Positions 34,909-41,126 of a stretch of 64,000 nucleotides of DNA are shown piece by piece. Both the position numbers and the translations under genes were made by a program. This DNA is from Sulfuracidifex tepidarius (GTDB lineage Archaea; Thermoproteota; Thermoprotei_A; Sulfolobales; Sulfolobaceae). The DNA is taken from the NCBI RefSeq assembly GCF_008326425.1, contig NZ_AP018929.1:944875-1008874 (forward strand), in the 5' to 3' direction. Each line of letters starts with the position of its first letter. Position 1 is the first letter of the stretch. The notes beneath the pieces were generated by a model that was given only the letters and a program-made list of their open reading frames with translations, did no database searches and was not told where the DNA came from.

Positions 34909-34998
34909 GCCGCCGTAGCTCAGCCCGGCTAGAGCGCCGGACTCATACGATCCAGAGGGGATATCCGGTTGTCCGGGGTTCAAATCCCCGTGGCGGCA
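34909..34998 (+). tRNA. tRNA-Met (anticodon CAT), with 15-nt intron; integration site
   Basis: Acceptor GCCGCCG with TGGCGGC, D arm GCTCAGCCCGGCTAGAGC, anticodon stem CCGGA (34937-34941) with TCCGG (34964-34968), anticodon CAT at 34944-34946, T arm GGGG-TTCAAAT-CCCC. A 15-base intron (34948-34962) follows base 37, the usual place for archaeal introns. It looks like the elongator. From base 38 onward the gene is repeated at 37793, marking it as the target of an integrated element. Confidence 0.9.
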
Positions 34999-35035
34999 CC
35001 TTAACTAAATTTGCTAAAAATTTCAATAGTTTTCT
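34963..35035 (+). repeat. Left attachment repeat (attL), 73 bp
   Basis: Identical over 73 bases to 37793-37865. It begins exactly at the first base of tRNA-Met exon 2, covers the rest of the tRNA gene and 37 bases downstream. Only this copy belongs to a complete tRNA. Confidence 0.9.
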
Positions 35036-35106
35036 AGATAAGAATAACTACCAAAGGAGTAAGAATTTGACAACAATAATTAATACAATCGTGTATGTTT
35101 AAGTTT

Positions 35107-35649
35107 TTATCTTTCCCCGAAACGATACTTATAAGTCTCGATCTTACTCTTCAAATTATCAACCAACATTTTAGTCTCAAAGCTTACACTCTTTCTTTGC
35201 ATAGCCTCCTCAGCCCTTGACAAGTACTCCTTAGCCCTCAAATACAAGTCTTTATTATCATAAGCTATAGCATTCTGCAGATACATCATGCCAATCATGG
35301 CTAACTGTTTAATATACTCCTCACCTTTAGCAAACTTAAGCTTAGCCTCAAAACTCTTAATATATTTCTCGTCAATAGATTGTCCGCTGTCCGGTAAGAT
35401 TGTAATGGATACCCTCTTCATAAAGGGGGTAATAAGACCACGACTTTCTAAGTACCTCTTAAAGTAAGTAGCCGAAACTACAAATACTAATATAGGAATA
35501 ATAGTACTAAGAGTGTTGGCAAGTGTCATATCATGTAGTATATAGTAAGGAATAGAAAACGATAACACCACAGCCACTACAGTAGGTAAACCTATAAATA
35601 GTAATGCTAGACCGAGCCATTTAAAAAAGGATAACCTCTTTTCTTCCAT
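35107..35649 (-). CDS. Two-span membrane protein, candidate immunity or export partner
   Basis: 180 residues. Two membrane helices (about 10-32 and 44-63), then a cytoplasmic, helical C-terminus: GQSIDEKYIKSFEAKLKFAK, LAMIGMMYLQNAIAYDNKDL and RAKEYLSRAEEAMQRK, resembling a tetratricopeptide-like hairpin. No known domain recognised. It lies 44 bases after the cysteine-rich gene on the same strand. A broken paralog stands in the same position next to the right att repeat. A role as immunity protein is inferred from this pairing alone. Confidence 0.65.
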   Translation of the reverse strand: MEEKRLSFFKWLGLALLFIGLPTVVAVVLSFSIPYYILHDMTLANTLSTIIPILVFVVSATYFKRYLESRGLITPFMKRVSITILPDSGQSIDEKYIKSFEAKLKFAKGEEYIKQLAMIGMMYLQNAIAYDNKDLYLRAKEYLSRAEEAMQRKSVSFETKMLVDNLKSKIETYKYRFGER

Positions 35650-35693
35650 AACCTATCCCCTGGTTAGTATTATTTATGATACTTAAAAAATTT

Positions 35694-36353
35694 CTAACAA
35701 CATAGACCAGCTTTCTGACATAGATATTCTCCACCTAGCCCGCAAGCAGTTGCTACACCTAATGAGATAATTAATTGGAGTAATTCGTCACAAGAAGGTA
35801 TACATATCACTACACATATACCGTAGATAACAGGATCCTCAATAAATATTAGACAAACCTCACCACAAGCTTCATCGCATGCTACACTTTCAGCAACGCC
35901 TTCGGCTAGCAATCCGCATAGTACAGAAACTATTGCTTTACATATTTCACATTCTATCGGATTCGGATCTTTCCCTTCTTCACTTTTTTGTTGTAAAGGG
36001 TAAGGTTGGTATAGTTTATCTGGTACTAGTAATTCCTTATTCTCTATCCTCTTAGTCTTAGTTCCGCAACCAGACACTCCTTCCTTAATCAAAACCCTAT
36101 GCTTATCCCCTTCCCTTCCTAAATACTTCACCTTAAAACTTCTAAGTATACTTTCGGAACCGTAGTTTATCCTATAAGTTGTCTCGTGCTCACCGAAAGG
36201 GTCACCTTCTACCAACTGACTCCATTGGATTATCTTTGACGGTTGCCCTTCATACTCTATTAATGTCACTCCTTGTCTAAAAATTCTCTTATCATCTTTC
36301 TTCTCTTCATAATGCAATAATTTAATGCTCTTAGGCTTTAAACTCTGAGGCAT
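35694..36353 (-). CDS. Cysteine-rich halocin C8-like archaeocin precursor (candidate)
   Basis: 219 residues. Residues 1-130 are soluble and charged, with one Cys (96). Residues 135-219 are hydrophobic with 13 Cys, opening CEICK (135-139) and closing CQKAGLC (212-218) plus a final Cys. Halocin C8, a haloarchaeal peptide antibiotic cut from the C-terminus of a precursor, has the same plan: about 75 residues, CxxCK at the start and CxxAGLC at the end. In that system the N-terminal part is the immunity protein. No signal peptide is seen here. A TTTAAA box about 23 bases before the ATG suggests a leaderless message. Similarity is from memory and pattern, not alignment. Confidence 0.6.
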   Translation of the reverse strand: MPQSLKPKSIKLLHYEEKKDDKRIFRQGVTLIEYEGQPSKIIQWSQLVEGDPFGEHETTYRINYGSESILRSFKVKYLGREGDKHRVLIKEGVSGCGTKTKRIENKELLVPDKLYQPYPLQQKSEEGKDPNPIECEICKAIVSVLCGLLAEGVAESVACDEACGEVCLIFIEDPVIYGICVVICIPSCDELLQLIISLGVATACGLGGEYLCQKAGLCC

Positions 36354-36696
36354 GGAAGAATTGAGAACTTTAAAAAAAAGTTAACTATAATAGAACATCT
36401 TGGCAATATTCATCACTTATTTTTATTCTAACCTAACTAGGTTATAGTTTGAAAGGGTGTGCAATTATCTTTTGAAACTAGATGCAACAGAAGTCCTTAA
36501 ATCAGCATAGAGATGCTAACAGCCTTAACAGATACCGAAGATATGAATAAGAGGATCAAAGAGGATAAAGCTATGTTCAAATCCGTAGTTTCATCAAAAA
36601 AATATAATTAGTGTTGAGTATAAAGACAAAATCTCCACGTAAGAAGATAATGCATAGAACTCTTTGTACATTTAAAGAAAATTTGTAAATATTTAG
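36354..36696. other. Intergenic gap inside the element
   Basis: About 340 AT-rich bases. Contains the promoter of the cysteine-rich gene and a weak plus-strand frame (MLTALTDTEDMNKRIKEDK, near 36510-36610) too short to call. It separates the protease pair from the cysteine-rich pair, so these may be two transcripts. Confidence 0.35.
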
Positions 36697-37128
36697 TTAA
36701 AGATCGTTAGCCTTAATAATTAGTCTAACGTTTGTGTCGAAGCATATCATTATTCTTGAGAAGAAATCTTCCCTACCTAAAATTAGGCTGGGATATATAC
36801 CCTCACCTAAATTTACGAAATCTAAAGATGCAACTGGTATCTGTAATGTCTCATTAAGTTCCACGAAATGAAATTTTATGTTATACCTTTCTTTTGTAGT
36901 GAGCAGATTAGAAATTATAACTTTATCGACTAAACGGTTTTTTAACGAGGATTCATCAAAACACTTTAAGAACGTATCATTTCTAATGACAGAAAACCTA
37001 CTTCCAGTATCTAGAAGGGCATAAACTAAATACTCACTACCTAGTTTTGGACACTCCATTTCCACTTTAAGTAAAGGTAAATACGTATCATTAACCTTGA
37101 CAAAAGGTACTTCTATCTCGCGAGACAT
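36697..37128 (-). CDS. Retropepsin-like aspartyl protease
   Basis: 143 residues. Active-site ALLDTGSRFSVI with Asp40-Thr41-Gly42, then the second hallmark SLILGREDFFSRI (ILGR box) near residues 113-124: the single-domain, dimeric retropepsin fold. Such proteins process other proteins. Its gene follows the 55-residue gene by 2 bases. In this cassette it could release the cysteine-rich peptide from its precursor; this is inference. A C-terminal remnant of a homologue lies at 39728. Confidence 0.8.
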   Translation of the reverse strand: MSREIEVPFVKVNDTYLPLLKVEMECPKLGSEYLVYALLDTGSRFSVIRNDTFLKCFDESSLKNRLVDKVIISNLLTTKERYNIKFHFVELNETLQIPVASLDFVNLGEGIYPSLILGREDFFSRIMICFDTNVRLIIKANDL

Positions 37129-37130
37129 TA

Positions 37131-37298
37131 TTAACTCTCTACATATTTGATGGAGACTAAAATATCGTAAGTCCCTTTCTTATAACCCTTCTTCTCCATG
37201 ATCTTATCAATCTCCTCTTCAGAATCAGCCTCAGCAACAATTCTTCTATTATAATCTATTGCGTAATATTTCCTCATAACCTTGATGGGAGTAGTCAT
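37131..37298 (-). CDS. Small conserved protein, first gene of the cassette
   Basis: 55 residues: KVMRKYYAIDYNRRIVAEAD, then SEEEIDKIMEKKGYKKG and DILVSIKYVES. Beta-beta-alpha pattern, similar to short archaeal proteins (DUF5678-like) whose function is unknown. The stop is 2 bases before the protease start, so the two are translated together. A frameshifted paralog of equal length is at 40691. It could be an inhibitor, chaperone or DNA-binding protein for the cassette. Confidence 0.7.
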   Translation of the reverse strand: MTTPIKVMRKYYAIDYNRRIVAEADSEEEIDKIMEKKGYKKGTYDILVSIKYVES

Positions 37299-37792
37299 AT
37301 TCTCAATTTAAATATAAACTTGCAGGGCTATAACTTTGTCTGCTATGCTCTATTAACGAATTTTTGAACTAGAAATGTTAGTGTGCTTGGTTGTTTAGTA
37401 TTTAAAAGCTTAGAATGCCTCTTCACTCAGAAAAAGAGGAGAAAAATAAGTGTTAGGAGACAATAATAACAATATCAGCTGCAAAAGTTAATGCATATTG
37501 GTTATTTGGTCTAAAAAGCTCGAATATGACAAAAATCTATTTTTAACATCATTTTCAAAAATCGAAATGAAATAATATTCACGTTATAGATAAAATATTA
37601 TGGCAAGAAGTTCAAGATTTATACACTAGAATAGAGGAGAATGACAAAGTAACTGAGGTGTTTAAGGGTTTAACATCTCATACGATGTAGATTCTTTCAT
37701 CTAATACTTAATCTAAATTATATTATTAGAATGAAAATTAACCCTTTAACACAAAGGTGTTAAATCAAGCCTATTAATTTAACGTTTTTTAC
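37299..37792. other. AT-rich tail of the element
   Basis: About 490 bases. A plus-strand open stretch (ILWQEVQDLYTRIEENDK, about 37590-37690) ends in a stop but has no start; it may be a gene remnant. An inverted pair TTAACAC/GTGTTAA near 37742-37762 could form a short stem. No integrase fragment is recognisable. Confidence 0.35.
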
Positions 37793-37865
37793 ATCCGGTT
37801 GTCCGGGGTTCAAATCCCCGTGGCGGCACCTTAACTAAATTTGCTAAAAATTTCAATAGTTTTCT
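37793..37865 (+). repeat. Right attachment repeat (attR), partial tRNA-Met
   Basis: Exact 73-base copy of 34963-35035. It holds exon 2 of tRNA-Met only, without acceptor 5' strand, D arm or anticodon, so it is not a working tRNA. Confidence 0.9.
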
Positions 37866-37934
37866 CTATGATGAACTACTAAAAAGTAAGAGCTAAATTA
37901 ATAATATCTGAATAACATCAATAAGTTTAAGTCT

Positions 37935-38541
37935 TTATCTTTCTCCGAAGCGGTACTTGTAAGTCTCAATTTTACTCCTCAGGTTATCAACGAGTGCTTT
38001 AGCCTCAAAACCCACGCTCTTTCCCTGCATTACCTCCTCAGCCCTTGACAAGTACTCCTTAGCCCTCAAATAAAGATCCTTGTCGTCTTAAGCTACAGCG
38101 TTCTGCAGATACATCATGCCTAGCATGGCTAACTCCGCCACATAATTTTCCGACTCCTTATCTGAAAACGCTAACGCTTTCTCATATCTCTTAATCACTT
38201 TTTCATCAATGGGTTGTCCGCTCTCTGGAGAGATTATATACTTAGTCCTAGCCTCTTTTTTCCTTATTCCAGGAGGTCTTATCCCACGCCTCATAAGATA
38301 TCTGTCAAGGTAAGTGGACAATGTCGCACCTAATGTAGAGGATATTATAGCGCTTAAGGAAACGGATAATATTAAGCTATGTAAAAAGATATAAATAATG
38401 TCATAAGCCAAAATAAGCACTATAGCTGATGGCAATGCTGAAAATAATAGGATAAGTAAGACGTATTTTAAAGTTGATATCTGTTTAGTAGGACCAAAGA
38501 TAACCTTATTTGTTTCGTGTTTTTCCTTACTTACTTACCAT
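37935..38541 (-). pseudogene. Broken paralog of the two-span membrane protein
   Basis: Homologous throughout to the gene at 35107: GQPIDEKVIKRYEKALAF, LAMLGMMYLQNAVA, then an in-frame TAA where the sister has Tyr, and beyond it DDKDLYLRAKEYLSRAEE with the same RFGER end. At the other end the ATG at 38541 is followed by a duplicated TAAG that breaks the frame after four codons. Both lesions together make it a pseudogene. It lies 70 bases from the att repeat, against 72 in the intact copy, so whole segments were duplicated or integrated in the same manner. Confidence 0.8.
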
Positions 38542-38956: not shown

Positions 38957-39337
38957 GAACTAACTACACTAAAAATCCACGATACTATAATTAAACGCGA
39001 TACTAATACTGAACCAGGGATAATTAACGTGGACGTTATAGGCATTGCAATTTATTCCGCAATAGAAGACCTAATTAATTATCACGATATTAGTAGAAGT
39101 TTAGCAGTATTGACATACCATTTGATAACTTCTCACCCTTTCGTTGATGCTAATAAGAGGACTACTTTCGTACTGTTATTAAACATATTATACGAATTAT
39201 ATGATAAAGAAGTCCCACAAGACTTAGAAGAGGAATTAATAAAGACCTTAGTTGAGGTAGCCGATAACCCACCAAAAGAAGATGAATACACAATAAATAA
39301 AATAAGGAAAATTATACAGAAGATTATTGAAGATTAA
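38957..39337 (+). CDS. Fic/Doc-family protein, start uncertain
   Basis: The Fic/Doc core is HPFVDANKRTTF (HxFxDANKR), preceded by a helix AIEDLINYHDISRSLAVLTY. Doc-type proteins are kinases acting on translation factors; Fic proteins AMPylate. The first usual codon is a GTG at 39029 (102 residues), but homology-like sequence (LKIHDTIIKRDTNTEPGIIN) continues in frame back to about 38957 without a proper start, so the gene may have lost its beginning. No separate antitoxin (Phd-like) gene is visible. Likely part of the accessory island. Confidence 0.6.
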   Translation, partial: ELTTLKIHDTIIKRDTNTEPGIINVDVIGIAIYSAIEDLINYHDISRSLAVLTYHLITSHPFVDANKRTTFVLLLNILYELYDKEVPQDLEEELIKTLVEVADNPPKEDEYTINKIRKIIQKIIED

Positions 39338-40690: not shown

Positions 40691-40857
40691 TTATAATTTC
40701 TCGTTTTCTACTACTGTTAAAATGTCATATTGGCTCCTCTTATACCCTTCTTTTTCATTATCTCTCCAACTTCCTCCCACGAATTACTCCCAGCTATAAT
40801 ATTCCTATTCTCGTCAATTGCCAAATACATCCTAATAATCTTAATAGTATCAGACAT
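40691..40857 (-). pseudogene. Frameshifted paralog of the 55-residue cassette protein
   Basis: From the ATG at 40857: TIKIIRMYLAIDENRNIIAG, SNSWEEVGEIMKKKGIRGAN, then a one-base loss; the next frame continues DILTVVENEKL to a stop at 40691-40693. Adding one base gives exactly 55 residues and matches the gene at 37131 all along. As read, a 46-residue protein ends at 40717. Confidence 0.7.
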
Positions 40858-41126
40858 ACGCTCCCAAAGTAAATGCAAACATCTAAAATTATAGCTCTGC
40901 TTGTCTTATATTACTTCAGATTTTAAATTAGAAGTTTTGACTCATTATCTATACACCTAAGTATCTTATGTTCGTACCCTCGTATTAACATCTTCTTTTT
41001 AAAATATATTTTATAGAAATAAATTTTCATAATTAGATATTATAGAAATTAATAAGGGAATTAATATTTTTCCTTTTAGTTAATGTTTCCGAAATGTTAA
41101 TTTACTTAATAGATAACTCAAACTAG

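Follow-up and report, generated by a model that had tools for sequence, protein, structure and literature searches.

Attachment cores of a small integrase-less element family begin at the exon 2 border of the intron-containing tRNA-Met gene in Sulfuracidifex tepidarius and related Sulfolobaceae

Why does a direct repeat next to a tRNA gene in Sulfuracidifex tepidarius start with the first base after the tRNA intron, and what does this border tell about integration into intron-containing tRNA genes? We addressed these questions in a window of 64 kb (the whole stretch of DNA that was analysed) from the 2.56 Mb genome of S. tepidarius, here referred to as G000; other G labels refer to relatives, and the family set comprises 31 genomes. 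The window carries an elongator tRNA-Met(CAT) gene at 34909-34998 (+ strand; Rfam tRNA score 55.7 bits), which represents the reconstituted target, i.e., attL. For this region ARAGORN predicted a tRNA-Tyr(ata) when run without introns and tRNA-Met(CAT) when introns were allowed. The intron is 15 nt (34948-34962, +; from gene position 40 according to ARAGORN) and interrupts the tRNA at position 37/38, where an intron is present in all 31 genomes of the family set. The direct repeat, 34963-35035 and 37793-37865, has no mismatches over 73 nt, which in 64 kb is far beyond chance. As described in the initial annotation, the repeat starts with the first base of exon 2 (34963) directly after the intron and ends (35035) 37 nt beyond the tRNA end at 34998, and the copy at 37793 is preceded by other sequence; the preceding base is T (in the intron) in the first case and C (37792) in the second.

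The 73 bp had also been taken as the length of the attachment sequence, and here our data give a different answer. The repeat is composed of exon 2, 36 nt, which is the true att core (left copy at 34963-34998, +, as defined by the repeat and the junctions in relatives), and 37 nt that constitute the right arm of an element (34999-35035, +; repeated without change in the second copy). A nearly identical arm of 37 nt follows the tRNA-Met gene in G015 and G012, and for the single insertion in G015 the repeat is shorter, 36 nt, corresponding exactly to exon 2. The 37 extra nt are doubled in the window because an intact element stands in tandem before the remnant of an older relative. As judged from relatives in other genomes, the intact element, which lacks an integrase gene, covers 2830 bp (34963-37792, +), and it ends with a left arm of 60 nt (37733-37792, +) that is kept in relatives irrespective of the host intron and holds repeats and inverted repeats. 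The junction of the two tandem elements is formed by a copy of exon 2 without exon 1 or intron (37793-37828, +), followed by the right arm of the older, decayed element (37829-37865, +; identified by the 73-nt repeat and by alignment).

Alignment of the two places revealed that the homology continues beyond 35035 (78% identity over 455 nt) and reaches the gene encoding a 180-aa protein in the intact element and the decayed copy of this gene. The latter, 37866-38435 (-; alignment and tblastn), has an in-frame stop and is a remnant of the older element. Moreover, a decayed second copy of the region of a 55-aa gene is present at 40738-40880 (-; 68% over 144 nt to 37178-37319; tblastn), also as a remnant of an older element. 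An ORF of the Fic/DOC family (39029-39337, +) is located in the decayed DNA that follows the mini-elements.

The 2.83-kb element has four ORFs, all on the minus strand, encoding proteins of 180, 219, 143 and 55 aa. The 180-aa product (35107-35649, -) is a putative membrane protein with no Pfam family above the cut-off, and we consider it a candidate immunity or accessory protein. The 219-aa product (35694-36353, -) resembles a halocin-C8 precursor with a Cys-rich C-terminal domain; it matches TIGR04449 over the full domain length with an E value of 1.3e-4 and 22.8 bits, just below the curated cut-off of 24. In the G015 relative this gene has a stop where the Cys-rich domain starts and only the end of the domain remains beyond it, and the alignments to G012 and G025 are confined to the N-terminal part. 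Decay of the Cys-rich part in relatives may mean that immunity has been retained and the peptide lost. The 143-aa protein (36697-37128, -) is weakly similar to retroviral aspartyl proteases (Pfam RVP, E value of 0.24 only), and a 41% identical protein is present in five Sulfolobus islandicus plasmids, while pNOB8 and a Saccharolobus shibatae plasmid contain DNA with 71% similarity to the region of the 55-aa gene (37131-37298, -). In ten genomes searched with Pfam (PF00589 and PF16795) we detected no integrase in or beside the element, and none was found adjoining this type of arm; likewise, no integrase was among the families matched by the ORFs of the element, and no int gene fragment (PF16795) was detected at the tRNA-Met att sites of the window. 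Searching for the att sequence of the element in plasmids and viruses, as suggested in the initial annotation, gave neither a free circular form nor an attP in plasmids, phages or viral contigs. For the proteins of the element no match was confirmed in viral contigs or genome contigs, and a pattern scan of the genome contigs was also empty.

Searches with the left arm gave matches in 13 of the 31 genomes. Eight of these, representing four genera, carry the arm of this family (G000, G025, G001, G012, G013, G014, G015 and G020), and the other five matches correspond to exon 2 alone or, for G030, to exon 2 and a few extra bases of a different arm. In G011 only a right-side remnant of the element is left. 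Relative to G000 the identities of the element are 95.3% over 1884 nt (G015), 90.4% over 2768 nt (G014), 91.0% over 1861 nt (G025), 85.5% over 1923 nt (G012) and 95.8% over 1156 nt (G020). Neighbouring host DNA is 75.6% identical within the same genus, to be compared with 85-96% for the element across genera; with up to 96% identity between genera, the element has therefore moved between hosts. The tRNA-Met locus was compared with empty sites in relatives, as had been proposed: the flank after attR in G014 aligns with the sequence directly behind the tRNA-Met gene of G029 (76%, and 93% slightly further on) and of G019 (79%), both of which have no element there. G025 and G026, which belong to the same genus as G000, have the same tRNA-Met intron and no such element behind tRNA-Met. 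In G025 the mini-elements are instead located at 195-198 kb, where ARAGORN finds no tRNA; two att copies are present in this region (G025:C1:193635-200286) with no tRNA nearby, and position 29 of their exon 2 is C, compared with T in the tRNA-Met gene of G025. A tRNA-Met element of another kind, approximately 45 kb, is present in G030, with an unsplit tyrosine integrase of 413 aa 132 bp behind the tRNA. The arms of this pNOB8-type element differ in sequence from those of the mini-elements.

We then have to ask how general the exon border is. The set used for counting consists of 18 exon-2 copies outside tRNA genes from 10 genomes; the tRNA genes themselves and matches to tRNA-Glu were left out beforehand, the truncated copy G020:2525923 was not counted, and G013:1223522 is included although its left side is no element arm. 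In all 18 copies the match to exon 1 is 0 nt. The match to the host intron is 0 nt in 14 copies and 2-3 nt in four (3 nt in G012 and G030, 2 nt in two copies of G001), because the element arm ends with (G/A)AC and 9 of 30 host introns end with GAC. A core crossing into the intron had been put forward as evidence against a role of the intron, and such crossing is found only in this mild form in four copies and is absent in the other 14. Hence, the border is exact in G000 and soft by 0-3 nt across the family. G015, G012 and G014 have the same sequence over the 20 nt in front of exon 2, from which G000 and G025 deviate at one or two positions, and the hosts sharing this near-constant left arm have four different introns (G000/G025, G012, G014 and G015). 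The same border is seen for a second arm family (G030, G017, G020 and the G000 copy at 943393), which in G030 flanks the 45-kb element. Among the 30 genomes in which the gene could be parsed (G026 has N bases in exon 2 and its intron was checked separately), there are 26 distinct introns of 12-25 nt versus only four variants of exon 2, namely the commonest one and three that deviate from it at a single base. Because the introns are this variable and exon 2 is not, attP would share exon 2 and not the intron with its hosts.

For comparison we used intron-free tRNA genes (Glu, Asp, three Arg, Thr, Gly, Gln, Val and His), which include targets of both integrase types. In 15 att copies at these genes, aligned to the tRNAs of G000 and not to those of each host (and for Glu to the CTC isoacceptor), the identity extends beyond position 38 on its left side by 3-11 nt (median 8); the three lowest values were obtained for a decayed His relic and for two Glu copies that had been aligned to a different isoacceptor. 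The cores at intron-free tRNAs thus take in the anticodon loop wholly or for the greater part, and in many cases extend into the 5' stem. Set against this extension of 3-11 nt, the lack of any match to exon 1 and the intron match of 0-3 nt in 18 of 18 tRNA-Met copies support the suggestion, made in the initial annotation, that the intron limited the homology used in integration. Moreover, a provirus with an SSV-type integrase is inserted in the intron-containing tRNA-Pro(GGG) gene of G025, with 12.7 kb between the tRNA and the copy, and this copy also starts at exon 2, with one further nt matching the intron. The att copies share ancestry, and two tRNA-Met arm families together with the tRNA-Pro case correspond to approximately three lineages. 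A permutation across lineages, three intron-containing versus ten intron-free, gave p = 0.010 (3 of 286), a modest value based on few lineages to which values were assigned manually (the highest for each intron-containing lineage, the lowest for each intron-free one and, for Glu, the value ignoring the anticodon). With respect to other intron-containing targets, a pNOB8-type integrase is located beside tRNA-Trp(CCA), which has a 61-nt intron, in G012 (G012:C1:4200-8800); for this fourth target no attR was detected in G012 at E <= 1e-7. For tRNA-Lys there were no copies of the 3' part only among the matches listed.

Differences within exon 2 give some insight into where the strands might be exchanged. 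At position 22 of exon 2, which lies in the T loop, 4 of the 18 att copies have G, compared with A in all 30 tRNA-Met genes, and for the 45-kb element of G030 this is the only position at which attR differs from exon 2. In addition, position 8 is C in the copy and T in the gene of G014. The part of attR to the left of the exchange is derived from the element, so these differences would place the exchange to the right of both positions, i.e., in the T arm or beyond. This suggests that for the tRNA-Met elements strand exchange may take place in the T arm and not in the anticodon loop. IntSSV1 is described in a review as cutting at the borders of the anticodon loop (PMC8371274). The differences at positions 8 and 22 could, however, reflect decay after integration. 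For tRNA-Pro of G025, there are two differences between host and element among the seven bases at the corresponding place, and either the exchange occurs elsewhere or identity of the overlap is not required.

Taken together, we favour the interpretation, with a probability of roughly 75%, that two related integrase-less elements entered the intron-containing tRNA-Met gene successively and that the tRNA part of their attP equals exon 2, bounded by the intron. They would be members of a family of integrase-less integrative elements that is widespread in Sulfolobaceae. As the anatomy of the copies indicates, the tRNA-derived part of attP would consist of the 36 nt of exon 2 only. The intron separates the 5' half of the anticodon loop and varies with the host, which presumably leaves exon 2 as the only part common to all; the 5' half of the loop would be outside attP because it is located beyond the intron. 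Recombination would set the exon 2 of the element behind exon 1 and the intron of the host, and in this way restore the tRNA gene, as seen in the product. The exchange most likely occurs within exon 2 towards the T arm, catalyzed by a tyrosine recombinase acting in trans, possibly of the pNOB8 type such as the enzyme beside tRNA-Met in G030. The intron would accordingly shorten the shared core and probably shift the exchange point, without preventing integration. Whether integrases of both archaeal classes have responded by moving the exchange from the anticodon loop into exon 2 (T arm), with attP trimmed to exon 2, is a more tentative idea that we consider possible but doubtful; if true, the shift and the trimming would be traces of an arms race between integrases and tRNA introns.

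Other explanations can be weighed against these data. First, the intron may have no special role: the integrases of this family would simply use cores that start near the anticodon, and a single ancestral attP, whose border happened to coincide with exon 2, would have spread. The common ancestry of the copies, which form two arm families and possibly go back to one or two founding events, agrees with this, but both tRNA-Met arm families and the tRNA-Pro provirus, with an integrase of another class, stop at the border, and cores at intron-free tRNAs do include the anticodon loop and often the 5' stem (see the permutation above). We regard a chance border as unlikely. Second, a small plasmid might have integrated by plain homologous recombination through the 36 nt of exon 2 with no dedicated integrase involved, in keeping with the lack of an integrase in the 2.83-kb element and with exon 2 being the sole homology to the host in single insertions. 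However, the conserved 60-nt left arms with their repeats and inverted repeats, together with the conserved right arm, appear by their sequence to resemble the binding arms of a recombinase, and the same site has been reused precisely across several genera, which makes this route improbable. Third, the initial annotation offered as an alternative that attP was made from an intron-free form of tRNA-Met, spliced or intron-less, and the copies indeed contain no intron sequence beyond 0-3 nt; such an attP is nevertheless expected to run into exon 1 (CTCATA), which 0 of 18 copies do, and with an intron-containing tRNA-Met gene in 31 of 31 family genomes, none of them intron-less, this origin is very hard to uphold. 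We also considered that attP was born from a reverse-transcribed 3' exon and rejected this, the bases after the core being CCT, CTT and TTG and not CCA, and nothing else speaking in its favour. Finally, if the repeat had arisen independently of integration, by recent segmental duplication or by gene conversion, this would explain that the homology runs on past the 73-bp repeat at 78%, but such an origin is scarcely credible given that the same junctions occur in separate genomes and that the sequence following the G014 copy can be aligned to empty sites.

The window element can be classified as a tRNA-targeting integrative element, with a restored tRNA at one end, a copy of the 3' part at the other, empty sites in relatives and evidence of mobility. 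It is similar to the integrative conjugative plasmids of the pNOB8 type in Sulfolobales in that the 3' part of a tRNA gene is the target, the tRNA is restored and a direct repeat marks the far end; its cargo genes are also related to those of conjugative plasmids, and the 45-kb tRNA-Met element of G030, with its unsplit integrase behind the tRNA, is of this kind. It differs by its size of 2.83 kb and by having no intact tyrosine integrase of its own beside the restored tRNA. Its core starts at exon 2, unlike those of pNOB8-type elements at tRNA-Glu and tRNA-Asp, which include the anticodon loop. With proviruses of the SSV type, which have a suicidal integrase, it shares the use of the 3' tRNA part and, in the case of the G025 tRNA-Pro(GGG) provirus, the exon border, but there is no int gene split by att at the tRNA-Met sites of the window. 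A non-conjugative satellite element, pSSVi, reportedly integrates and spreads together with a fusellovirus.

That intron-containing tRNA genes serve as integration targets is already known. Such genes account for 10 of 39 cases in Thaumarchaeota (PMC6563490), and for Sulfolobus islandicus integration has been listed at Met-CAT, Pro-GGG and other intron-containing tRNA genes (PMC3718332, Table 5); as in the window, introns are no bar to the use of these targets. Passages on such targets in these two papers do not tie the att limit to the exon border as we do here, and the abstracts and passages covered by our full-text searches contained no mention of an exon-border rule for att cores. Sugahara et al. 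proposed that an intron in Caldiarchaeum tRNA-Thr was gained through an intron-bearing attP (PMC3293823), which also connects tRNA introns with integration; the window element, in contrast, carries no intron and the host intron stays in place. Archaeal tRNA introns have been proposed to protect against integration (Randau and Soell 2008, as cited in PMC4090602, PMC4033280 and PMC3293823). Despite this proposed protection, intron-containing tRNA-Met, repeatedly, and tRNA-Pro have been used as targets, and in these cases the core shared with the element is reduced to exon 2. The protection idea thereby becomes directly testable, in that an intron would alter the size of the site and probably the exchange point, and not whether the site is used. 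The exon-border rule also provides a simple guide for locating the ends of elements at intron-containing tRNAs, and the present data describe a small family of integrase-less elements with a halocin-like gene.

Two further loci were noted. A plasmid contig of 37.8 kb in G014 encodes a pNOB8-type integrase and was considered as a source of a helper for tRNA-Met, but was ruled out since it carries a tRNA-Glu att; the DNA integrated at tRNA-Glu in the G014 chromosome includes a stretch identical to the first 20 kb of this contig. Outside the window, 36 kb from the tRNA, a decayed exon-2 copy with the second type of left arm is present in inverted orientation (G000:C1:943393-943428, -), and its flank resembles the attR flank of G030, which hints at a past inversion.
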